Virus record (IMG/VR): IMGVR_UViG_3300031857_001087 | Location: 1 to 27,716 of that record | DNA: 27,716 bases | Reading direction: 5' to 3' (one strand) | Source: a virus | Shown: one piece after another, positions 4,740 to 27,716 of the stretch | How positions within the stretch are numbered: the first letter of the stretch is position 1 | Layout: each line of letters opens with the position of its first letter | Notes under the pieces: model-generated | What the model was told of the DNA's origin: nothing | Databases searched by the model: none | Seen by the model: only the letters and a program-made list of their open reading frames with translations | Made by a program: the position numbers and the translations under genes

Positions 4740-4767
4740 AAAAAAGGAGCTTTAAAGCTCCTTTTTT
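4738..4767. terminator. Bidirectional terminator
   Basis: A perfect inverted repeat (AAAAAAGGAGCTTT with AAAGCTCCTTTTTT) lies between the convergent genes ending at 4739 (+) and 4766 (-). A runs on one side and T runs on the other let it act on both strands. It overlaps the stop codon of the co-chaperonin gene. Confidence 0.9.
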
Positions 4768-5374
4768 ATTTAATATCAGTTGATTCCAATAGTGTATATG
4801 AAAAAGCATTTCCATGAATCTTAGAGGCTTTTCTACAAATAGCCATAAAAGCATCAAAATCCTTCACTCTTTTAAATACTTGACACCCTTCTGACCAGTT
4901 TTCTACCCAAGTAGAATCTTGTCCAGCCTTATGGATGTTTATTCCAAACATTCCAGTATCAGTCGTATTTTCCTCAAACACTAAATCGCGATTAGCGTCT
5001 CTCCAAACAGTCACGTTTCCGTTTCTTTGACAAAGAGCATCATACTTTCCTTGATGTTTGTCAATCTTCCATACTCCTCGATACTGTCCAGGAACAAGCC
5101 TAGCGACTCCTTTTTTATTATGGAACTCCTGAACTCCCTTTTTTCCAGGATCACAAGTTGCCATCCAACAGAAAAACTGCTTTACTCCATTTTCATCTTT
5201 ATATGAAATCGTCAAGTGATCATCAAATACGTTAGTTACCTTTTTGTATACTGCTGGAGAGGTGTTTCTTACTCCAATAATGTTCACGTCATAAGTCTTG
5301 TTTGAAGCATCCTCAAACCACTTATAGCCTTTTGCTTTGACTGCGGCCTCGACCTGTTCTCTTGTATAGCACAT
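4766..5374 (-). CDS. YkuD-like (L,D-transpeptidase-type) protein, possible endolysin
   Basis: A protein of 202 residues. Near the C-terminus FGINIHKAG (H148) followed by WSEGCQVF (S161-E-G-C164) mirrors the His/Cys catalytic motif of YkuD-type L,D-transpeptidases (H-x-x-G, then S/T-x-G-C). The middle has VPGQYRGVWKIDKHQGKYDAL. I recall similar proteins in phages and prophages. No signal peptide is visible, so export would need a holin or release on lysis. It has its own upstream TAAATAAA-rich late-type promoter and a terminator behind it. A cell-wall-lytic role is an inference; a virion-associated role is also possible. Confidence 0.6.
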   Translation of the reverse strand: MCYTREQVEAAVKAKGYKWFEDASNKTYDVNIIGVRNTSPAVYKKVTNVFDDHLTISYKDENGVKQFFCWMATCDPGKKGVQEFHNKKGVARLVPGQYRGVWKIDKHQGKYDALCQRNGNVTVWRDANRDLVFEENTTDTGMFGINIHKAGQDSTWVENWSEGCQVFKRVKDFDAFMAICRKASKIHGNAFSYTLLESTDIK

Positions 5375-5403: not shown

Positions 5404-6336
5404 TTAAAGAGCGGTGATTCCAGCAGCAGACTCAGCTCTACCTGTACCAGCATCCCTAGAATTGATTATTCTATTGGGTTTTACCCAATCTTTTAGCCCA
5501 ATGTAAAATCCATCCTTAAGCGAATCGGTGACTTCAAATTTATTTAAGATTTCTTCTGTATTTGAGTACCCTGCCTCTTCTAACTTAGATTTAATCTCGT
5601 CACTGGTGTATTTCTTATCATCAAGGTCAGGTTCGTCTACCGCCTGGTACCAGTCAAGATATTGATAGATGCCTGACTCCTGATCAGATGTATCTATGTG
5701 TTCTGTAGTATTTTCACTATTGTTACGGGAGATGATGTTTTCTAAGTATTTATCAAGAGGTGTAAAGATGAGTACGTCCTTGATTTTATCTGAGTCGTAA
5801 TAGTTTTTAATAGCATCACCTACATCATCAAAAAGAATGGTCTTGGCAGAGAGTAATGCTGCTGCCCATGCCATTGCGCTAACTCGACCGTCTCCCTGTC
5901 TGCCACCCATTTTTCTTATGGTTGACTTGCACTTTTCTGGATCGTATCCTGCGATCCTCTCGATCTCCTCATACTTTGATTTTTCTTCTGGGCTTGCCTC
6001 TTCTTCCCATTCCTTAAACTTATCATCGTATAATTTTATCACGTGAGGAGAGTCTGTCTCAGCTGCGATTTTAGCAAGAGTCGGCATTCCGGCTTCTTCT
6101 ACCAGTTTGATGAAGGCTGGTCCTACTTCAGGATTATTAAAGTTATCAGTTCCGACTAATACTGTTTCAGCATCAAGATCATCATACCAGTGCTTCGCAC
6201 CCAATTGATTCATTGCAAAATAAGTCTTGCCTGATGCACTTGGACCTGAGAGCAATATAAGATCCTTTTGATCTAAATTAAACTCACGAGCTTCATATAA
6301 TGCTACCCACCTAGTGTAATTTAATAAGTACTTCAT
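5404..6336 (-). CDS. P-loop kinase-like protein with capsid-targeting-like tag
   Basis: A protein of 310 residues. The N-terminus MKYLLNYTRWVALYEA aligns without gaps with those of the genes at 25347-25739 and 26340-27020 (L-N-F/Y-x-x-W-x-x-L/V-H/Y-E15 before S/A), a gp21-type cleavage site. Next comes a Walker A loop, LILLSGPSASGKTYFAM (P-loop 31-38), and later TILFDDVGDAI as a possible Walker B. The loop resembles zeta-toxin or small-molecule/polynucleotide kinases; the substrate is unknown. I infer a packaged, injected nucleotide-dependent enzyme. No clear late promoter precedes it, and a terminator separates it from the sheath gene. Confidence 0.7.
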   Translation of the reverse strand: MKYLLNYTRWVALYEAREFNLDQKDLILLSGPSASGKTYFAMNQLGAKHWYDDLDAETVLVGTDNFNNPEVGPAFIKLVEEAGMPTLAKIAAETDSPHVIKLYDDKFKEWEEEASPEEKSKYEEIERIAGYDPEKCKSTIRKMGGRQGDGRVSAMAWAAALLSAKTILFDDVGDAIKNYYDSDKIKDVLIFTPLDKYLENIISRNNSENTTEHIDTSDQESGIYQYLDWYQAVDEPDLDDKKYTSDEIKSKLEEAGYSNTEEILNKFEVTDSLKDGFYIGLKDWVKPNRIINSRDAGTGRAESAAGITAL

Positions 6337-6402: not shown

Positions 6403-9402
6403 TTAGAAGCTCGGTATAAATCCAGTAGAATCTGAACTTAACGTTCCTCCAACTCTTGTGATAGTGATTCGGTTGATGAACTTTTGAATTCCTCTTGGGA
6501 AGTCTACTCGAATATCAATGATTGCTGCATTTGCAGAGATCACCTCGTTCGTATTATTTGAAGAATCAAATATCACTTCAAAAGAGTTGACTCCTCGGGC
6601 ATTCAATACTGCCGTCATGTAGTTTTCAACGATAGTTCTTACTCTTAGTCTTGTGATCTCATCATTGAAATCAAACAAGAAGTTGAACAAGATCTTCTCA
6701 ATGTCTCTCTCGATAGTCGATAAGTTATCTCTAACGTGAGCGTTGTTAAGAGCTGAATTGATTCTTTGGTATGCAGTGTTATTAGAGAATAGGATGATTC
6801 CAAATCCTCTACGTTTAACTGTCAAGTTGAATCCAGCTGGCTCCAAGTAATCTCTGTCCTCGTCAGTAAGATCGTATTCTAATCCTACTACTTCAGGATC
6901 TGTGATTGCTCCACGTTTTCCTCCAGCTACGATCAAGAAAGGAGTTCCGTTCTTGAATTTTCTAACGTATAAGTTAGAGATGTAACCAGCTTGTGGAACC
7001 GAGATGTTCTTGCTTCCACTTCTAACTATCAAGTTAGGGAAGTGATAAGAAGCATAAGAAGATAGAGGAACTCCCTTAACATCCTCTTCAGCAAACTTAA
7101 ACGTGAAGCTTGGATTTAAAGAAAGATCTCCACCTTGAGAGATATACTCAGTTGAAACCAATTTAGTAGTTCTATTGATGAAGCTAGGATCTACTGATTT
7201 CTCAAACTGCTGAACAGATGGAGCGTTTAGTAGAGCCATTGCTTGGCCGTTAAGAGCAGCTAACTTAGCTAAGTGATACTTAGAAGATGCAGAGATTGTT
7301 CCAGCATAAGAGTCAACCACGTATCTAAAGTCTACAACTTCTCCGTTTGCTAAGGTCTGTGGAATTGAAGTCGAAGTGAAAAGGTAATCTAAGATTCCGC
7401 CTGTTCCTTCAAGTCTTTCAGCAGTTCCATTAGGAAGAAGATCATTACGAAGAGCAAAAGGTTTCAAGTTTTGTCCCTTTAAGCTTGTCGCAAAGTTATA
7501 GATTCCTTTGTAAACTGAAACCTCATTTCCAGTTGTGTCTAGTCCTTGAACCTCATCTACACTAGGTGCCATTGTAGTCACAGTGTAAGTCAAAGTATAA
7601 GGGCTAAGCTCCTCAGCTTGAGAGACTGAGATGATTTTTAGCAATCGTGGACGAACTGATCCGGTGATCTTTGCTTTGATAAAGTTATTCACCTTAATGA
7701 ATTCGTCGATCTTAGCTTTGTTTGCTGTGTTCGCAGTATTGATTCCCAAAATCAGCTTATTAGGCTGTATGATATCGTAGCTAGTAAAGAAGTTAGTATC
7801 AGTAAGATCAAAAATGTGCTTGAATTCTTCACCAGAATCTAAAATGATCTTTACATAGTCTTCTGTGTCAGGTCCAGTGTAATAGTTAACACTCACTTGA
7901 TTCAATAAAGAAATGTCTTGGAAGATAAGAATCTTAATATAAGGAATGGTTCCATTCAAGAAGTTATCAAGCACTTTAACATAATAAGTGTTAGATCCAT
8001 CGACCATTTCATCACCAGTCTGAATGAATCCCATCATGTACGACTCATATAACTTACTTCCTTTAGTCGCAACTAAGTAAGAATCACCAACGAGTGGAGT
8101 CACTTCATAAAGGTCTCCTTCTTGGATAGGAAGAGTGTTTCCGTTATCCTGGAATCCAGCGTTGAATGAAGATTCATTTAATACTCCGACTACCGATGGA
8201 TTATTTGATAACATAAAGATAAGCTCTCCATCAGAAGGCTTAGCGTAACTTAATGTGTTAATCAATGGAGTTGAAAGCTGAGTAGTTAAGTCAGTATCGT
8301 ATCCAAAATCATCAGCTGCATAAGAATCTAGTGAATCTAATTCATCAAATCCGTGTCCAACTAAGTCAATTCTATGAGTAGTGACGTCTTGATCAGCGAA
8401 TGACGTGTTAGTCAAGTCAATCAAGTCTAGTTTTTCAATGTCTAATGCACAAAGAATTCCAGTAGTAGGATATGCACGATTTACTAATCTATCGATAGAA
8501 ACAGTAACTCCGCTCTGGTCTCTAAAATCAGGAATTAAACATCCGATTGTTCTTGTAATTACTTTGATCTCTCTTAATGCAAAGAAATCAGATGCTTTAG
8601 CAGATTTTAGTCCTACTGAATCAAAAAACTGGCTGTATACTGGGTCTTTTGAAAGTTTCAAATAATTAGACCAGTCACCGCTAATCATGATTACTTCAAC
8701 GAAATAATCAGCGATAAAATCATCAGGGTGAACAAATTCAGGAAATTCTGTTCCTGCGCCAGCAACATTTGAATACCATTCTTTTGCAGTTACGTCATAT
8801 CCTGTAATAGCTGCTTTTCTTACCCAAATCGTAGCATTATTGTATCCTAAGTTAGCAAAGGAAAGAATTTTATTCGCATCAATTGAAGTTATTCCAAATC
8901 CTCCAGGGTTAGTGATGTAATCATCACCTAAGGAAATATTCTTTGACTTGTTTAACTCATCAGCAGATGCAAACCATAATCTTTGACGATTAAAGAAGTT
9001 AACCGCTGGCCATGCATCAGGTACAGCATCCGAGTTATTTGAAGAAGCTTCAGTATTGAACGTAGTGTAATACGCTAGGTCCAAGTTTAACGCAGGATCT
9101 TCCTCAATGTCTAAAGGCATAACGTTTAGAGCAAAAACAGGTCCTTCTCTAAGAGCGACTTCAATCGTTCTATGGAAGTAACTTCCTGCTTTTTCTAGTT
9201 TTGGATCGATCTCTCCAAATACTGCTTTTAGGGTTCTAACGTCGTTAATTAACACAACAGTATTGTAGGGTCCTACTCGGCTAGATCCGACAACAAGTCG
9301 GCCGGTCGTAAGAGGCAAGACGATGTTCTCGCTCGCGTCTATCTCAACCGTGTAAACACCGCTTGACTTGTAATTGTTCAGGTTTATCCTTGGTTCAGCC
9401 AT
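6403..9402 (-). CDS. 18: Tail sheath protein, gp18-like
   Basis: A protein of 999 residues that would form the contractile outer tail tube; T4 gp18 has 659. The N-terminus (LNNYKSSGVYTVEIDAS) and the C-terminal domain are sheath-like: RGAITDPEVVG, LTVKRRGFGIILFSNNTAYQ, EKILFNFLFDFNDEITRLR, VRTIVENYMTAVLNARGV and a final strand GIQKFINRITITRVGG. The extra length lies in the middle (about residues 200-700), where surface domains are inserted in this family. A late promoter is 15 bases upstream and a terminator follows, so it is a single-gene unit divergent from the replication block. Confidence 0.9.
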   Translation of the reverse strand: MAEPRINLNNYKSSGVYTVEIDASENIVLPLTTGRLVVGSSRVGPYNTVVLINDVRTLKAVFGEIDPKLEKAGSYFHRTIEVALREGPVFALNVMPLDIEEDPALNLDLAYYTTFNTEASSNNSDAVPDAWPAVNFFNRQRLWFASADELNKSKNISLGDDYITNPGGFGITSIDANKILSFANLGYNNATIWVRKAAITGYDVTAKEWYSNVAGAGTEFPEFVHPDDFIADYFVEVIMISGDWSNYLKLSKDPVYSQFFDSVGLKSAKASDFFALREIKVITRTIGCLIPDFRDQSGVTVSIDRLVNRAYPTTGILCALDIEKLDLIDLTNTSFADQDVTTHRIDLVGHGFDELDSLDSYAADDFGYDTDLTTQLSTPLINTLSYAKPSDGELIFMLSNNPSVVGVLNESSFNAGFQDNGNTLPIQEGDLYEVTPLVGDSYLVATKGSKLYESYMMGFIQTGDEMVDGSNTYYVKVLDNFLNGTIPYIKILIFQDISLLNQVSVNYYTGPDTEDYVKIILDSGEEFKHIFDLTDTNFFTSYDIIQPNKLILGINTANTANKAKIDEFIKVNNFIKAKITGSVRPRLLKIISVSQAEELSPYTLTYTVTTMAPSVDEVQGLDTTGNEVSVYKGIYNFATSLKGQNLKPFALRNDLLPNGTAERLEGTGGILDYLFTSTSIPQTLANGEVVDFRYVVDSYAGTISASSKYHLAKLAALNGQAMALLNAPSVQQFEKSVDPSFINRTTKLVSTEYISQGGDLSLNPSFTFKFAEEDVKGVPLSSYASYHFPNLIVRSGSKNISVPQAGYISNLYVRKFKNGTPFLIVAGGKRGAITDPEVVGLEYDLTDEDRDYLEPAGFNLTVKRRGFGIILFSNNTAYQRINSALNNAHVRDNLSTIERDIEKILFNFLFDFNDEITRLRVRTIVENYMTAVLNARGVNSFEVIFDSSNNTNEVISANAAIIDIRVDFPRGIQKFINRITITRVGGTLSSDSTGFIPSF

Positions 9403-10259: not shown

Positions 10260-11674
10260 TAGTAGGATCTGAAGTATTGAATGATGGAACTTTTCTAGTC
10301 TCTTATTATGATGAGAACGGTAAAACCGCTTTCATGAAGAAGAGGTTAGCTGACCATGAGCTCTATAACTGGGTCGAATCTTCTAATCCAACTGCTACTC
10401 GCAATTGGGATGGGAAGTTCGTCAAACGTGGAATGAGCGCCGGCCAATACATCAATCAATTTAGGATCCAAGAACTAATTCGTGAAAAACTCACAGCCGA
10501 GGAGATCGCAGCAGTCTATAACCAAGATAACTTTCCTAAAAAGACTTACCTCGATATCGAGATCAAGCTAATAGACGATAGCTTTCCAGAACCAGATAAA
10601 GCTCGAATGCCAGTAGGTCTTATCTCCTTTTGTAATGAGGATAACGTCACCTACATTCTTTCTATTCTTAACTCTGAAGATCAGCCTGACGGTTTGACTC
10701 AAGATCAGATAACTCAGATGGAAAAGGACGTGAACGATTACTTTAGAAAGACCGTTCCTCTTAGAGAAGCCGACCGTGCACTATTTGAGCAAGATTTTAA
10801 GATCAAATACAAGTTCTTCAAGACTGAGGAAGAGTTAATGGAATTCTATTTTCATCGAATCATGCCGCATTTCTCATTTGTTACTGGATGGAATGTGACT
10901 GAATTTGACTGGAAGTATCTCATGAATCGAGCCAAAAACATCAAAGTCGATGCAATGGCAACCATGCCGACTAAATCTACTTTCTCAAAGGTAAAGATAC
11001 CAACTCACCTAGGAGTTCTCGATTACATGCAAGTCTTTGAAAAGCTCAAGCCTTATAAAGTCGTTGAGAATTACAAGTTAGACTATATTGCAGAACTCGT
11101 CCTAGGTACCGCCAAATTGAAGCACGATTACTCATCATTCATAGAGTTTCAAAAAGATACTTATCTCTTTACTATGTATAACGTGATTGACGTCATCCTA
11201 GTAAAACTAATTGAAGATAAGCTTTCAATCCTAGATGTTGCCTTTGAGATGTCTAACGTTGCCCAAGTCGATGTGAATAAAGTATTTAGTCCAGTACACA
11301 TTGCAGAGCTTCTAATGTGTCGTGAATTTCTAAATAAGAATCTTAAAATGATGAAGCTCCCTTGGGGAGAAGAGGTACTCGATGCGACCTATGCTGGTGC
11401 ATACGTTAAGGATCCTATTCCAGGTTACTATAACGCGATCGCATGTTATGACTTCTCTTCAATGTATCCAAACATTCAGATTCAATTCAATATCTCACCA
11501 GACACTTATTTAGGCAAGATTGATAAAGTAAAGAAGGATGGAACCGAGATCCATACTAAAAACGATACCATGTTTTCAAGCAAATCAGACTCTGTTGCTC
11601 GAACAATACTGACTCGACTCTATGATGAAAGAATCAAGACACAAGGGGAGATCAAAAAACTTAAAAACTCATAA
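10256..11674 (+). CDS. 43: DNA polymerase gp43, N-terminal half (split gene)
   Basis: A protein of 472 residues (T4 gp43 has 898). It has the complete family B proofreading exonuclease: Exo I in KKTYLDIEIKLID, Exo II in VTGWNVTEFDWKYLMNRAKN, Exo III in YNVIDVILVK. Polymerase motif A follows (CYDFSSMYPNIQIQFNISPD, catalytic D399). The reading frame ends 73 residues later in a helix like fingers helix N (RTILTRLYDERIKTQGEIKK). Motif B, motif C (DTDS) and the thumb are missing, and no other gene here encodes them. The sequence beyond the stop is unrelated in every frame, so this is not a simple frameshift. The C-terminal half is presumably elsewhere in the genome. Confidence 0.88.
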   Translation: MIVGSEVLNDGTFLVSYYDENGKTAFMKKRLADHELYNWVESSNPTATRNWDGKFVKRGMSAGQYINQFRIQELIREKLTAEEIAAVYNQDNFPKKTYLDIEIKLIDDSFPEPDKARMPVGLISFCNEDNVTYILSILNSEDQPDGLTQDQITQMEKDVNDYFRKTVPLREADRALFEQDFKIKYKFFKTEEELMEFYFHRIMPHFSFVTGWNVTEFDWKYLMNRAKNIKVDAMATMPTKSTFSKVKIPTHLGVLDYMQVFEKLKPYKVVENYKLDYIAELVLGTAKLKHDYSSFIEFQKDTYLFTMYNVIDVILVKLIEDKLSILDVAFEMSNVAQVDVNKVFSPVHIAELLMCREFLNKNLKMMKLPWGEEVLDATYAGAYVKDPIPGYYNAIACYDFSSMYPNIQIQFNISPDTYLGKIDKVKKDGTEIHTKNDTMFSSKSDSVARTILTRLYDERIKTQGEIKKLKNS

Positions 11675-23605: not shown

Positions 23606-24712
23606 CGGAGAAGGCGGATTCTCATCAGCATCCTCTTCTTCCTGTTTAGTCTCTAGCTCTTCTCCCTCTTCTGGTTCTTCTACTGGAGTCGTCTTATTTA
23701 GATCAGGCTCAAATAGAGAATCAAAGTTGATGGTTGACTTGATTGCCACCTGAGACGAACGATTTGAATAAGTGTCGATCTGCACGGCGTCTCCTTTGAA
23801 TTCCAATGATAAGGAAGGTAGAATAGTCTTGAATATCTGCTCATTCACGTTCTCAATCGGATCGTACACGATGATCTTAGAGATCGGTGGCTCACTCTTT
23901 TCGTCAATGATAAAGTTGTTAGTGAGTCCGCCAGACACAGCCACACTGAAGCCCTCCCAGCTGTTTATCTCAGCTCCATCCAAGGTTGTCACCATTCCAG
24001 TAGAAAGCTTAAGAGTCACTCTAGGATTACCTGAATCTATACCGCTAGTCGAGACCTCACGTAAGACAGTTCGATTTGTGGTGAACCTCACGCTGAATCT
24101 AGTTCCACTAAAGTATCGATCATTTAATTCCTTTCTTTGGGCTGCAGTCAGGTAAGTTGTTCTTGCGGATTCTCCTATAGGTTTAGGTAATCCTTTTTGT
24201 CCAGGATTTAGTTGGTCTTGGCCCTTGTCTAATTGAGGCTGACCTTGATCCAATTGACCTTGACCGGCATCCAATCCTTCTTGTCCTTTACCCAATCCTT
24301 TTTGAGGTTCAGGCAAACCTGGTACTTCAGGATTCTTAGGTTCTTCGGGTTCTTCGGTTTTTTCAGGTTCAGTCTCCGGAGGCAAAGGTTCTCCTGCAAT
24401 CACTGCTTCGAAAGCCGCAGCATAATCAGGATTGATCCTTTTCTTGATCTCCTCGTTTGCCAAGTCAATCTTTCTCTTTAGGAGATTTACCTCGCTTAGG
24501 ATAACATAGGTCAGGGTAGCATAGCCTTCTTGAAATTTCATGTCAGGAAAGGCGTCCACTTGATGTAGCCTAGCCGAAACATCCTTCTGGTCAAAGACGG
24601 TTTCTCCGTCAACTATTGCCCACAAAAGGTCATAGCTTAGGATTGCCTGGAAGATGAATCCTCCGTCCCTAAGTCTGATTTCGTCTGATTCTGCCTCAAA
24701 TATGCTATCCAT
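23591..24712 (-). CDS. Probable structural protein with Gly-Gln heptad repeats
   Basis: A protein of 373 residues, not recognised. Residues 1-105 are helical (RDGGFIFQAILSYDLLWAIV; LSEVNLLKRKIDLANEEIKK). Residues about 108-138 are Pro/Glu-rich. Residues 139-173 hold five seven-residue repeats of the form G/Q-L-x-x-G-Q-x. A beta-rich domain follows (ARTTYLTAAQRKELND; TRFSVRFTTNRTVLREV; LPSLSLEFKGDAVQID), and the tail is very acidic. It lies directly upstream of the tail tube gene and overlaps the previous gene by one base. A tail or connector role is inferred from position. The start MDSIFEAES has I-F-E before A, a possible protease site. Confidence 0.68.
   Translation of the reverse strand: MDSIFEAESDEIRLRDGGFIFQAILSYDLLWAIVDGETVFDQKDVSARLHQVDAFPDMKFQEGYATLTYVILSEVNLLKRKIDLANEEIKKRINPDYAAAFEAVIAGEPLPPETEPEKTEEPEEPKNPEVPGLPEPQKGLGKGQEGLDAGQGQLDQGQPQLDKGQDQLNPGQKGLPKPIGESARTTYLTAAQRKELNDRYFSGTRFSVRFTTNRTVLREVSTSGIDSGNPRVTLKLSTGMVTTLDGAEINSWEGFSVAVSGGLTNNFIIDEKSEPPISKIIVYDPIENVNEQIFKTILPSLSLEFKGDAVQIDTYSNRSSQVAIKSTINFDSLFEPDLNKTTPVEEPEEGEELETKQEEEDADENPPSPRINN
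24194..24298 (-). repeat. Five 21-base repeats coding heptapeptides
   Basis: Five in-frame units encode GLGKGQE, GLDAGQG, QLDQGQP, QLDKGQD and QLNPGQK, with a degenerate sixth (GLPKP) behind them. They lie within the gene 23591-24712 and form a flexible linker between its helical and beta-rich parts. Such repeats can change number by slippage or recombination. Confidence 0.85.
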
Positions 24713-24963
24713 TACTTGCGATCTCTGACTCGTTTATAGTTTTTCCAAAGCTCATTATAGATATTACATGAGGCGCCTAAGAAGTTGATGATTCCAACAA
24801 ACTTCTTTTTTTCTTCGCCCTCCATGTTAGCGACCTTTACTCCAATCTTCTTGGCGTCATTAACTGTGAGTTCCTCGTCCTCGTCCTTACCTACTAACTT
24901 CTTTAGATCGCCCTTCTTTTCTAATAGAGCATATCTTTGAAAGCTTGTGATTGCTCTCTTCAT
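24712..24963 (-). CDS. Small basic protein, possible prohead core or internal protein
   Basis: A protein of 83 residues, Lys-rich. It starts MKRAITSFQRYALLEKKG, where F8, Y11 and L13-L14-E15 fall in register with the tags of other late proteins here, although K16 instead of a small residue follows the possible cleavage site. The middle has an acidic patch (GKDEDEELTVND) and helices (FVGIINFLGASCNIYNELWK). It lies between two other small late genes, overlapping the next by one base. Function not recognised. Confidence 0.65.
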   Translation of the reverse strand: MKRAITSFQRYALLEKKGDLKKLVGKDEDEELTVNDAKKIGVKVANMEGEEKKKFVGIINFLGASCNIYNELWKNYKRVRDRK

Positions 24964-24972
24964 CGGTTTAGA

Positions 24973-25212
24973 TTATTTACGTTTTCCTCCGCCTACGATG
25001 TTCTTGTTCTTAGCCGTAGTCATGTACTGCTTAGTGTACTTATCGATGTGTGGAGTTCCTTTACCTTTAACTGGTCCTTCAATCAATCCTTGGTTGATCT
25101 TCATAGATCCATTCTTATCGTTTGCAGAAACGTTTGCTTTTCCACGGTACCCGCTTTCAGCCTTTTTGAATGCTGCCATAAACTGGTTGTAGTTCATAAC
25201 TGGATTTGCCAT
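24973..25212 (-). CDS. Small Gly/Lys-rich late protein
   Basis: A protein of 79 residues, basic and rich in Gly, Lys and Asn. MANPVMNYNQFMAAFKKAES resembles the capsid tags (V-L/M-N-F/Y, aromatic, then x-A-E before S20), but position P3 is Lys rather than a hydrophobic residue. The rest (GYRGKANVSANDKNGS; GPVKGKGTPHIDKYTK) is low in hydrophobics and ends GGGKRK. It has one of the best late promoters in the window. It may be a core or DNA-binding internal protein; no family is recognised. Confidence 0.68.
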   Translation of the reverse strand: MANPVMNYNQFMAAFKKAESGYRGKANVSANDKNGSMKINQGLIEGPVKGKGTPHIDKYTKQYMTTAKNKNIVGGGKRK

Positions 25213-25223
25213 TGTTACTTAAT

Positions 25224-25240
25224 TTTTTTATTATTTATCT
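25224..25240 (-). promoter_or_regulatory. Putative late promoter
   Basis: The minus strand reads AGATAAATAATAAAAAA, identical over 17 bases to the motifs at 28-44 and 25752-25768. It ends 11 bases before the start codon at 25212 and probably serves the run of genes down to 22213. Confidence 0.7.
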
Positions 25241-25294
25241 TACTTTAAAAGAAAAAACCGAAAATGTCTTGACATAATCTAATCAGATATTCTA

Positions 25295-25330
25295 AAAATA
25301 AAAAACCCCACTTTATCAGCGGGGTTTTTA
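25295..25330 (-). terminator. Terminator after gene 25347-25739
   Basis: The stem AAAAACCCC/GGGGTTTTT with an 11-base loop is followed on the minus strand by a T-rich stretch. It lies 17 bases beyond the stop codon at 25347. Confidence 0.85.
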
Positions 25331-25346
25331 TACTTTATTTAAAAAT

Positions 25347-25739
25347 TTATCCCTTAGGAAAAAATTGCTTTTTTAATTTAACTGCATACGCAACAGCGTC
25401 TGTCGCGGCCTTTTTAACTTCTGCATCTGTTCCATTTGGCCATCCAAATTCCTTCTTGTTTTTATTGCCATCTGAGTAAACAACATATTTCCAAGGATCA
25501 GTTAACTTTGAGTTAAGAAAAAGATTGACTCCTGTATTATGATCAGGATAACAAAAGTATCCCTTACCATATGATGAAAATCCAGACACATTTGGTTCAT
25601 CAATGTATTTGAATCCAGCTGCAGCCATTCCTGGTTTTACAATTTGACCAAAGTGATCAAAATCCTTAACTCGCTCCATTTCAGCTTCTTCAGATTCATG
25701 AAGCTTACGCCAATTACTAAAATTTAAAACATTTCCCAT
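25347..25739 (-). CDS. Putative packaged internal protein (tag family, module 1)
   Basis: A protein of 130 residues. Its first 16 residues, MGNVLNFSNWRKLHES, match position by position those of the genes at 26340-27020 and 5404-6336 (V-L-N-F-x-x-W-x-x-L-x-E15 before S/A), a predicted gp21-type cleavage site. The mature part is a small alpha/beta domain with aromatic residues (HFGQIVKPGMAAAGFKYIDE; GKGYFCYPDHNTGVNLFLNS) and a C-terminal helix. It has a perfect late promoter and is divergent from a secreted-protein gene. Injection with the DNA is inferred; the function is unknown. Confidence 0.75.
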   Translation of the reverse strand: MGNVLNFSNWRKLHESEEAEMERVKDFDHFGQIVKPGMAAAGFKYIDEPNVSGFSSYGKGYFCYPDHNTGVNLFLNSKLTDPWKYVVYSDGNKNKKEFGWPNGTDAEVKKAATDAVAYAVKLKKQFFPKG

Positions 25740-25751
25740 ATTTTAAAAATA

Positions 25752-25768
25752 TTTTTTATTATTTATCT
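25752..25768 (-). promoter_or_regulatory. Putative late promoter, module 1
   Basis: The minus strand reads AGATAAATAATAAAAAA. It stands in the 84-base divergent region with the TATAAT promoter of the opposite gene 24 bases away. Confidence 0.7.
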
Positions 25769-25791
25769 TTTTAAAGGAGAGATTTTTATAG

Positions 25792-25797
25792 TATAAT
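25792..25797 (+). promoter_or_regulatory. -10 element of secreted-protein gene, module 1
   Basis: TATAAT preceded by AG. The 32 bases from here to the start codon differ at only two positions from those after the TATAAT at 27071. This suggests a duplicated promoter and leader. Confidence 0.7.
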
Positions 25798-25823
25798 AGA
25801 CTTAACTACATAAATTAAACGCC

Positions 25824-26276
25824 ATGAAAAAGTTAGTAATTCTTTTAGTTCTATTGGTTTTAGCCGCTAAAGCCTTCTCTCAAACGATCACAATCGATGT
25901 TAAAGAAGCACAGTCTTACATTGATATAGGTCAGACCGACTTCCAAAGCGTTCTTGATGAACCTGATTGGGAAGACTTTCCTAGAACAACTAACTGTCGA
26001 TATGTGATCGATTTACAGGACAGCACTTCAACCTTTTACCGAGATGGAAAATTCGTAAGTGAGGTAAAGATTGACTATACTGAAGTATCTCCAGGTAAAT
26101 ACGTGATGACTACATACGACACTGCTGTTGAGTCTCACCGCTCATCAATATCAGCACAAATGGTATTGGATACTAACGAGAAAACCGAAGAGTTTTTGTA
26201 CAGCTACTATGACTTTATGGACGATAAGACGTATGTCGACATCCTAACTAAGTTCACGATAGTTCGACCTGTATAA
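25824..26276 (+). CDS. Secreted protein of unknown function (module 1)
   Basis: A protein of 150 residues with a clear Sec signal peptide: MKKLVILLVLLVLAAKAFSQ, with likely cleavage after FS, before Q20, a form common in Bacteroidota. The mature part is about 130 residues, acidic and beta-rich (RYVIDLQDSTSTFYRDGKFV; SAQMVLDTNEKTEEFLYSYY). One Cys remains. No family is recognised. The promoter, leader and first codons match those of the CAP-domain gene at 27103. It would act in the periplasm or outside the infected cell. Confidence 0.75.
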   Translation: MKKLVILLVLLVLAAKAFSQTITIDVKEAQSYIDIGQTDFQSVLDEPDWEDFPRTTNCRYVIDLQDSTSTFYRDGKFVSEVKIDYTEVSPGKYVMTTYDTAVESHRSSISAQMVLDTNEKTEEFLYSYYDFMDDKTYVDILTKFTIVRPV

Positions 26277-26292
26277 TATCTCTAAAGACAAG

Positions 26293-26318
26293 AAAAGCTC
26301 CTCAATTGAGGAGCTTTT
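26293..26318. terminator. Bidirectional terminator between modules
   Basis: A perfect inverted repeat (AAAAGCTCCTCAA/TTGAGGAGCTTTT) plus a T tract lies between the convergent gene ends at 26276 (+) and 26340 (-). Confidence 0.88.
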
Positions 26319-26339
26319 TTAGTTTTATAAGGAAAGTAA

Positions 26340-27020
26340 TTAAGGCTTTTGAGTAGGAGTTGCCTTAGCTCTTTCCGTAGCAAGAAAATTACTTAGGAGA
26401 GAATGATCCTTTGAATACTTAACGTTGCCGTCTCCTCTAGGAACTCCGAAAGCTGCCGCAGCGTTACCGCCAGCCTCTCCAAGTTCTTTTTGTGAGATGA
26501 TCGTCGCGATCCCTGCTGCAATCTGAGCCGCGTCACCATCGTTTGAAGGTTCTGCTCCAGATTGCACATCTAATTCATAATTTTTATCAGGTCCAATAGA
26601 CATGATTTGTGACCATGAGCCATGACCTTTTAACACAACATCTCCGGCTAAATACTGAACACCATTCTTATAAACCAACGCTCTTAATACTCCGTTTTCT
26701 GCAGAGAATATCGCTTTTATGGTATTCACCTTTTTAGATTTATCAGCAGGGTCGAGTGAAGTCTTAAAGCTAATCACCTTGTAAGGTTGTCCAGTCTGTA
26801 GACCCATTTGTGTTGTGGTACCGGTAGTGGTTCCTACCATAGTCGTTAGTGTTTCAGCCTTTCCAGAATTTGTTCCAATTCGATTGAACGCTTTTGCGCT
26901 TTGTTCAGCTACAAATTGAATCTTATCAAGAGCTGCAAGATCAGCTGGAGTCGAACCTGTACCGGTCTCATCAGACTCGTATACTCTATACCAATTTCTA
27001 AAATTTAAAACGTGTGACAT
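26340..27020 (-). CDS. Putative packaged internal protein (tag family, module 2)
   Basis: A protein of 226 residues. The N-terminus MSHVLNFRNWYRVYES is the closest relative of that at 25347-25739, with V13-Y14-E15 before S16. A Thr/Gly-rich segment (VGTTTGTTTQMGLQTGQP) precedes a beta-rich region (YKVISFKTSLDPADKSKKV; VLRALVYKNGVQYLAGDVVL), and then an Ala/Gly-rich helix. The mature parts of the two tagged proteins do not look alike, so the tag is joined to different cargo. It has a late promoter. Function unknown. Confidence 0.75.
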   Translation of the reverse strand: MSHVLNFRNWYRVYESDETGTGSTPADLAALDKIQFVAEQSAKAFNRIGTNSGKAETLTTMVGTTTGTTTQMGLQTGQPYKVISFKTSLDPADKSKKVNTIKAIFSAENGVLRALVYKNGVQYLAGDVVLKGHGSWSQIMSIGPDKNYELDVQSGAEPSNDGDAAQIAAGIATIISQKELGEAGGNAAAAFGVPRGDGNVKYSKDHSLLSNFLATERAKATPTQKP

Positions 27021-27030
27021 ACTAAAAATC

Positions 27031-27047
27031 TTTTTTGTTATTTATCT
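27031..27047 (-). promoter_or_regulatory. Putative late promoter, module 2
   Basis: The minus strand reads AGATAAATAACAAAAAA, one base different from the motif of module 1, 10 bases before the start codon at 27020. Confidence 0.7.
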
Positions 27048-27049
27048 TT

Positions 27050-27066
27050 AAAAGTTAGCAACTTTT
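27050..27066. promoter_or_regulatory. Inverted repeat at the divergent promoter, possible operator
   Basis: AAAAGTT-AGC-AACTTTT is a perfect 7-base inverted repeat with a 3-base centre. It ends 4 bases before the TATAAT at 27071 and starts 3 bases from the late motif of the opposite gene, so a bound protein could affect both. The right arm equals the core of the AACTTTTA box seen elsewhere. Module 1 lacks the repeat. Confidence 0.4.
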
Positions 27067-27070
27067 TTAG

Positions 27071-27076
27071 TATAAT
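27071..27076 (+). promoter_or_regulatory. -10 element of CAP-domain gene, module 2
   Basis: TATAAT preceded by TTAG, with a leader nearly identical to that of module 1. The start codon is at 27103 behind an A-rich leader without a Shine-Dalgarno sequence. Confidence 0.7.
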
Positions 27077-27102
27077 AGACTTAACCACATAAATTAAACA
27101 CC

Positions 27103-27642
27103 ATGAAAAAGTTAGCAATCATCTTGATCTTATTAGTAGTAGCATTCGAGTCTTTCTCTCAAGTTCAATATGTAGAATCTTCAAAGTTAGATTCCCTAGT
27201 TTGGCATCGAATCAACTCTTACCTAGTCTCACTGGGCAAGACTCCAATCAAACACTTTGAGGACAGTCTCTCTCGAGAATACAGTTATGAAGTCACTAGA
27301 GTAAATGCTGACGCTGAGATGATCGCCCACAGCAAGAACGTAGGATTGGTGACCACTGCTGAGTGCATCTATCAAGAGACTCACCGAGGCATGAATAGCG
27401 AGTTACAAGTGATGATTGATAAAAAAGAATATGATAAGATAGCAAAGCTTATCGTTGACTCTTGGATCGCTTCTGAGACCCATCGAAACCTGATCTCAAT
27501 AAACAATTATGCTGCGACTACTGTGACTACTGTCCTGAAATACGATAAGACCGGAAAGATCGCATCAGTCACCGCATCATGGCACGCAATCGACGATCCT
27601 AAGATCTGGACCACACGCAGCGGATATGTTTTTCGACCATAA
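27103..27642 (+). CDS. Secreted CAP/SCP-domain protein (module 2)
   Basis: A protein of 179 residues. The signal peptide is MKKLAIILILLVVAFESFSQ, with likely cleavage before Q20. The mature part follows the CAP (SCP/PR-1) layout: a first helix SSKLDSLVWHRINSYLVSLGK, NADAEMIAHSKNVG (H76), TTAECIYQETHRG, then IVDSWIASETHRNLISINN (E125, H127) and the final strand AATTVTTVLKY. These correspond to the His/Glu/Glu/His cleft and the W-x-x-S-x-x-H signature of the family. Bacterial CAP proteins are extracytoplasmic, and their activities are often unknown. CAP proteins are not usual in T4-type phages. A role in the periplasm or after cell lysis is inferred. Confidence 0.75.
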   Translation: MKKLAIILILLVVAFESFSQVQYVESSKLDSLVWHRINSYLVSLGKTPIKHFEDSLSREYSYEVTRVNADAEMIAHSKNVGLVTTAECIYQETHRGMNSELQVMIDKKEYDKIAKLIVDSWIASETHRNLISINNYAATTVTTVLKYDKTGKIASVTASWHAIDDPKIWTTRSGYVFRP

Positions 27643-27644
27643 CA

Positions 27645-27672
27645 AAAAAGGAGAGCAATTGCTCTCCTTTTT
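27645..27672. terminator. Bidirectional terminator
   Basis: A near-perfect inverted repeat (AAAAAGGAGAGC/GCTCTCCTTTTT) surrounds AATT, directly after the CAP gene stop and before the predicted end of a minus-strand gene. Confidence 0.85.
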
Positions 27673-27691: not shown

Positions 27692-27716
27692 TTATTTCTT
27701 ACCTACTGGCCTCTTT
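27692..27716 (-). CDS. C-terminal end of a minus-strand gene (partial)
   Basis: On the minus strand the last bases read KRPVGKK followed by a stop at 27694-27692. The position, 20 bases after a bidirectional terminator, repeats the layout of the previous module, where a minus-strand gene ends soon after the terminator. Only seven codons are visible, so this is tentative. Confidence 0.35.

Follow-up and report, generated by a model that had tools for sequence, protein, structure and literature searches.

The DNA analysed here (hereafter the window) spans 27,716 nucleotides of the viral record IMGVR_UViG_3300031857_001087 and covers part of the genome of a T4-like phage from an uncultured clade. 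Towards its right end lies an array of accessory genes that begins next to a small conserved gene, gp79, and comprises the following features:

24973-25212, minus strand: gp79 (79 aa), the left anchor gene, conserved, on the late side and 58-92% identical among related phages.
25224-25241, minus strand: late-promoter core of gp79, AAGATAAATAATAAAAAA, the shared crossover element, with an identical 18-mer at 25752-25769.
25301-25329, minus strand: hairpin terminator of the 130-aa gene.
25347-25739, minus strand: tagged, predicted late gene of 130 aa, with its tag, MGNVLNFSNWRKLHE followed by S, at 25695-25739.
25740-25823: divergent promoter region 1, with the late core at 25752-25769 for the minus strand, and an early GTATAATAG at 25791 plus the leader for the plus strand.
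25824-26276, plus strand: predicted secreted gene of 150 aa (family P150), with signal peptide MKKLVILLVLLVLAAKAFSQ.
26291-26320, detected on both strands: bidirectional terminator common to the convergent pair 150+/226-.
26340-27020, minus strand: tagged, predicted late gene of 226 aa (family M226), with its tag, MSHVLNFRNWYRVYE followed by S, at 26976-27020.
27021-27102, no strand assigned: divergent promoter region 2.
27103-27642, plus strand: predicted secreted gene of 179 aa with a CAP (CRISP/antigen 5/PR-1) fold and a signal peptide ending FESFSQ.
27645-27672, no strand assigned: bidirectional-type terminator common to the 179-aa gene and the next minus-strand gene, a palindrome that matches itself on the opposite strand.
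27692-27716, minus strand: 3' end of a third tagged gene (443 aa; 51565-52896 on the longer contig G001), the convergent partner of the CAP gene.

The first-pass annotation had described two consecutive units built to one plan with unrelated cargo, and we find the genes where it had placed them. The two can be aligned for 197 nt (75% identity, E = 3e-36), running from the minus-strand gene's tag across the divergent promoter as far as the signal peptide, and they share a direct repeat of 140 nt (77%, spacing 1279). The divergent regions, put at 82-84 bases, measure 84 nt (25740-25823) and 82 nt (27021-27102), and the near-identical leader of the plus-strand genes is borne out by TATAATAGACTTAACNACATAAATTAAA, which occurs exactly twice in the window where shuffled sequences give an expectation of zero. 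The hairpin terminators assigned to the two units correspond to bidirectional, terminator-like hairpins at 26291-26320 and 27645-27672, which are symmetric, hence fit both strands, and are positioned between convergent neighbours. The TATAAT element is real, but its sigma-70 -35 partner is at chance level (10 sites found versus 8.7 expected), and sigma-70 promoters were dropped as support. The 130-aa gene is only half a unit: in the gap at 25213-25346, the plus-strand gene expected between the terminator at 25301-25329 and gp79 is absent.

A longer contig, IMGVR_UViG_3300031758_000043 (G001; 78,257 bases), is identical where compared, the whole array region of the window included, and continues to the right of it. 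The adjoining gene there is not an ordinary neighbour without leader and tag but a 443-aa minus-strand gene with the same tag (MGYILNYKKWRAVHE followed by A). It is followed by a plus-strand gene for a Nei/Fpg-type DNA glycosylase (nei; Pfam Fapy_DNA_glyco, 1.8e-12) and then by ordinary genes. Because nei carries neither the leader nor the signal peptide, the array ends there; the suggestion that it might go on rightward holds for one further tagged gene and for nothing beyond. The full order is gp79(-), 130(-), 150(+), 226(-), 179(+), 443(-), nei(+).

We searched a viral collection with both flanking genes, gp79 and nei, and obtained 101 loci that contain both, duplicates included. In all of these gp79 lies on the minus and nei on the plus strand. 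Many have an interval of just 82-106 bases, which is an empty divergent late/early promoter region, and in filled loci the interval ranges from 628 to 7,349 bases and holds arrays of up to ten genes. We read 16 distinct arrays, the richest of which (L077) has five plus-strand and five minus-strand genes in strict alternation. A promoter-pattern scan of the viral collection, whose hits were otherwise mostly chance, added an independent seventeenth (L153), with a diverged gp79 and Nei, the same plan, and proteins that match the others significantly only via the tag. The proposed cassette arrangement, with constant regulatory and targeting ends and exchangeable cargo, holds in the 16 arrays and in L153. 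Half units, in which a tagged minus-strand gene lacks a plus-strand partner or the reverse, occur in L087, L143 and L088 as well as at the 130-aa gene of the window, and are probably decay remnants. Sites of 263-275 bases hold a single small plus-strand ORF (63-66 aa, YSTYL near its end) directly before nei (L112:9810-10001; L122:9801-10001; L067, reverse complement, 10286-10486), an insertion of a different kind from the array units. The same arrays were assembled in contigs from different metagenomes (L078/L079, L080/L081 and L083/L084); together with a leader repeat for which none is expected and a single plan in seventeen arrays, this leaves practically no room for chance neighbours or an assembly artefact, an explanation that the comparison with relatives refutes.

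All 29 minus-strand genes of the 16 arrays start with the tag M-x(1-3)-[ILV]-L-[ND]-[FY]-x-x-W-x-x-[LVI]-x-E, which matches once among about 1,000 non-array ORFs of the fetched loci; the arrays are mutually related, so that counts across them are not independent. The tag is 15-16 residues long, its [LIV]-x-E end is invariant (W+3 = [LVI] and W+5 = E in 29/29), and the residue after the Glu is mainly S or A, and mainly small or polar. Upstream of the tagged genes stands the motif AGATAAATAA, also found before the tail sheath gene and gp79, which we take to resemble the T4 late promoter TATAAATA. The minus strand encodes the tail sheath and tail tube in the window, and the major head protein and prohead protease on the longer contig. 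With head and tail genes on this strand and the GATAAATAA motif ahead of the tail sheath gene, the minus-strand genes of the array are very probably late. The protease, of T4 type, is the product of a 656-aa gene that matches phrog_207 (head maturation protease, E = 1.5e-31).

In T4, internal proteins, whose bodies vary widely between relatives, reach the prohead core by means of N-terminal capsid-targeting propeptides of 10-19 residues, which gp21 then cuts off (PMC9026906). The array tag has this length and a gp21-type end in 29/29 genes, which strongly suggests a capsid-targeting propeptide cut by the phage prohead protease after [LIV]-x-E. Most of the mature proteins are neutral or acidic (pI 4.5-8), not basic as T4 internal proteins are. 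From motif and context, packaging of the minus-strand proteins in the head is nonetheless a well-supported prediction, and if the tag is such a propeptide they would be carried in the head and delivered to the next host along with the DNA. The tag might instead be another localisation signal, for example for a replication compartment or the tail, given that its likeness to T4 propeptides is one of form only and that no located protein carries it. We consider this quite improbable: the last residues of the tag form exactly a gp21-type site, [LIV]-x-E, with mostly small or polar residues after it, a prohead protease is encoded, and late promoters precede the tagged genes.

A few other genes of the window phage have related starts. 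Outside the gp79-nei site, the sole gene found to fit the tag (MKYLLNYTRWVALYEAREF) lies at window positions 5404-6336 (minus); its product has weak P-loop ATPase/guanylate-kinase matches and is possibly another head-packaged protein. Beside it, at 4766-5374 (minus), is a gene for an endolysin-related protein (phrog_33083, E = 4e-10; phrog_3000, E = 1.2e-33). Two plus-strand genes, at 54-323 and 807-1556, open with a less strict motif that ends in [IL]-N-E-S (MLNNFNQFINES and MIKSFLEFINES), perhaps a second propeptide class, and the former is preceded by a late-type promoter motif. Next to gp79, the product of 24712-24963 (minus; MKRAITSFQRYALLEKKGD, with an early LLE site) may be a protein of prohead-core type.

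The plus-strand genes follow a different rule. A strongly hydrophobic N-terminus, corresponding to a signal or membrane segment, is present in 27 of 27 across the 16 arrays, in none of the 29 minus-strand genes and in 41 of 725 background ORFs (5.7%). These N-termini comprise Sec signal peptides, one lipoprotein, and rhomboid and other membrane proteins, and the products are predicted to be exported to the envelope of the infected cell. Since their strand carries replication genes (DNA polymerase, recombinase and helicase-type genes, by gene reading), the plus-strand genes are, with high likelihood, early. In pairs of unrelated plus-strand genes, the leader and the first 57 coding nucleotides are 79-98% identical, and the next 180 nucleotides are near the shuffled level, a drop that marks a second preferred border behind the signal peptide.

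This targeting bears on a neutral explanation, in which insertions are simply tolerated where early and late transcription meet and the pairs are hitchhikers without a common role. Empty sites are indeed common and viable, and polarity at a divergent junction would in itself demand plus-then-minus insertions. Neutral cargo, however, would not be expected to be so strictly biased (29/29 tagged, 27/27 envelope-directed), and the families persist at 20-77% identity; we therefore regard neutrality as unlikely.

As for the proteins, the AF2 model of the 179-aa product (pLDDT 79) has a CAP fold, with Foldseek matches to CAP structures. Its best-ranked PDB matches are mostly CAP, PR-1, venom-antigen and CRISP proteins, with axonemal linker chains at ranks 1-2, and include tablysin-15, GAPR-1, Ves v 5 and SAV1118. 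The Pfam CAP profile reaches E = 0.0052 for the relative in L078, the window protein itself staying below threshold, and a second family (CAP2, represented by a 200-aa protein of L090) has a clear CAP domain (Pfam E = 1.1e-10). Another plus-strand family is a rhomboid protease (Pfam E = 1.9e-18). The C-terminus of the 443-aa protein appears OmpA-like by fold (best E = 1.1e-3; mean pLDDT 44, with the C-terminal part alone confident), and OmpA/MotB/Pal-type domains, or complexes containing them, make up almost all of the 50 PDB matches listed for its model. Searches of Pfam, PHROGs and PADLOC with four window proteins reached no family. The 130-, 150- and 226-aa proteins reach no known family in Pfam or PHROGs, the first having no Pfam or PADLOC match and a sub-threshold best PHROGs hit (E = 0.022). 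PADLOC identified anti-phage defence genes for 0 of 10 proteins, and a PDB sequence search with the CAP and OmpA profiles gave nothing useful.

Comparing related phages for gain and loss of units, as the first-pass annotation had proposed, revealed near-isogenic contigs that differ by one whole unit. L085 and L086 (flanks 98% and 94% identical) differ by a 150(+)/228(-) unit; where L085 has one divergent region (8684-8775), L086 has one on each side of the unit, and the L085 region matches the two of them. Likewise, L101 has a 174(+)/202(-) unit and L098 and L100 are empty, with flanks 93-95% identical, and the join in L101 falls in a late-promoter core of ~22 bp found at both unit ends. In a Nei tree the filled sites are clustered and need only two changes, with L101 inside a clade that is otherwise empty. 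This is an architecture that evolves by recombination of whole units.

The inherited unit is not the divergent pair originally drawn but a convergent one, made of a plus-strand gene, a shared terminator and a minus-strand gene. The recurrence count of family pairs is 34 for convergent neighbours (null mean 5.6, maximum 24; 34 is reached in none of 20,000 permutations) and 2 for divergent ones (null mean 1.1, p = 0.27); the latter are rejected as the unit, and both tests are uncorrected for relatedness. The recurring pairs are CAP with the OmpA-like protein (8 arrays), 150+ with 226- (3 arrays, M226 being the convergent partner of P150, whose homologues are 65% identical in L017 and 57% in L016) and the rhomboid protease with a protein of 126-132 aa (3 arrays). 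The position of the CAP/OmpA-like pair differs by clade, adjoining nei in the window phage and gp79 in others.

That these pairs persist despite changing array order and neighbours (8, 3 and 3 arrays) could mean that each encodes one system whose two proteins come together in the envelope, such as an ejected protein plus an early secreted one that regulates, matures or blocks it, as in superinfection exclusion or self-protection. The OmpA-like domain of the CAP partner is of a typically peptidoglycan-associated kind, so both could act in the periplasm, but its model is of low confidence and the usual acidic ligand-binding residue seems, from the alignment, to be replaced. Moreover, crossovers confined to the divergent regions would preserve convergent neighbours without a functional link, and the pairing has exceptions: CAP stands with M479 in L082, and an M226-type gene stands with a different plus-strand gene in L101, for which homology to P150 was not established (hhalign probability only 2.8%). 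Functional coupling inside the pairs is plausible, though inseparable from hitchhiking by crossover position, and we entertain the one-system reading as a tentative possibility. Its specific form as phage-phage competition, in which the head-carried late member would act in the envelope at entry and the secreted early member would neutralise or exploit that step against superinfecting relatives, is more doubtful; if true, the array would be a shuffled library of exclusion specificities.

No isolate relative of gp79 was found among 50,697 phage records, nor any of the CAP protein, and the major capsid protein is closest to those of huge phages and Prevotella Lak phages (30-36%). A Shine-Dalgarno-like sequence precedes 0 of 56 array genes, and most of the signal peptides end in SQ; both traits are typical of Bacteroidota, and we predict a Bacteroidota-type host. 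Lake phages that encode bS21, with genomes of up to 331 kb, have predicted Bacteroidetes hosts (PMC9723584). A phage-encoded GroEL-type chaperonin (L011:17095-18702, plus; Pfam E = 2e-63) is a weak guide to the host because its best cellular match, a Bacteroidetes MAG (52%), is nearly equalled by Proteobacteria (48-49%). Other cargo includes a SulP-type sulfate permease family protein, unusual for a phage (L009:7059-8234, plus; G001 55558-56733; Pfam E = 7.8e-37), and a cluster with matches to NeuB, asparagine synthase, sulfotransferase and PIG-L deacetylase together with glycosyltransferase-like genes (L010; G001 68400-78257), a predicted surface-glycan pathway.

Taken together, we favour, with a probability of roughly three in four, a reading of the interval between two core genes transcribed away from each other, late gp79 and early nei, as a dedicated accessory-gene site, occupied by exchangeable pairs of one early-exported and one late-packaged protein that move by recombination between promoter repeats. 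The ancestral-looking site is the bare divergent promoter region of 82-106 bases, in which units are inserted, deleted and reordered; a unit consists of a plus-strand gene, whose product starts with a signal peptide or a membrane segment, then a terminator, then a tagged minus-strand gene. Every unit brings a copy of the divergent region, with crossovers in the repeated late-promoter core, such that homologous recombination could move an early and a late gene as one element and leave both transcription directions intact; leader and signal peptide stay alike, and the cargo behind them is unrelated. The minus-strand proteins, their tag trimmed, would ride in the head into the next host as T4 internal proteins do. 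Because these proteins would be head-carried and the plus-strand products envelope-exported, the array may be a swappable set of accessory proteins that act on the host envelope in two phases, first carried by the virion at entry, then newly made and secreted.

Such a site would be a two-phase cargo port, in which the right ends suffice for early envelope or late virion-head production. The tag and the divergent promoter offer a sequence handle by which dozens of phage proteins not yet known, both head-packaged and secreted, can be found, and the arrays provide a testable case of T4-like phages shuffling accessory genes via recombination at promoters. They also supply candidate effector/partner pairs against Bacteroidota-type envelopes, an almost unknown field.

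Among the papers searched, none describes a paired system of this kind, and the nearest concepts are the capsid-targeted proteins of T4 and the PeSL shuffling cassettes. At the level of folds, the 179-aa protein has that of the CAP superfamily (PF00188) at about 12% identity to solved CAP structures, and the C-terminus of the 443-aa protein, in a low-confidence model, possibly that of the OmpA C-terminal-like domain, here in a tagged and not a secreted protein. Morons and accessory islands of phages place additional genes, each under a promoter and terminator of its own, between core genes, and are present or absent among relatives. The array units are similarly equipped, inserted between core genes and variably present, but whereas morons are usually single genes of one phase, these are two-gene units with common targeting codes, up to five in an array. 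With IPI, IPII, IPIII and Alt of T4 and the ip genes that vary among T-even phages (PMC9026906), the tagged genes share a short, predicted N-terminal propeptide that ends at a prohead-protease site, predicted late expression, similar N-termini on little conserved bodies and a non-essential accessory role. They differ in the sequence of the tag, in bodies of up to 640 aa that are mostly not basic, and in that each tagged gene converges on a gene for a predicted early, exported protein, both within one unit bounded by promoters, their packaging being predicted. The PeSL mobile regulatory cassettes of T4-type phages (Arbiol et al. 2010; Comeau et al. 2014), as far as they are summarised in PMC4503421, likewise have promoter/terminator repeats around exchangeable genes, thought to mediate shuffling by homologous recombination, and the arrays share with them the early promoter and stem-loop terminator that bound the shuffled genes. 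In that summary the PeSL repeat is an early promoter joined to a terminator and acts in one direction, whereas the array repeat is a divergent late/early promoter region, its terminator lying at the other end of the unit, between the convergent genes, and not in one composite element. Unlike PeSL cassettes as described there, the array units hold one gene for each phase of infection, and the tag and the signal peptide are repeated along with the promoters.
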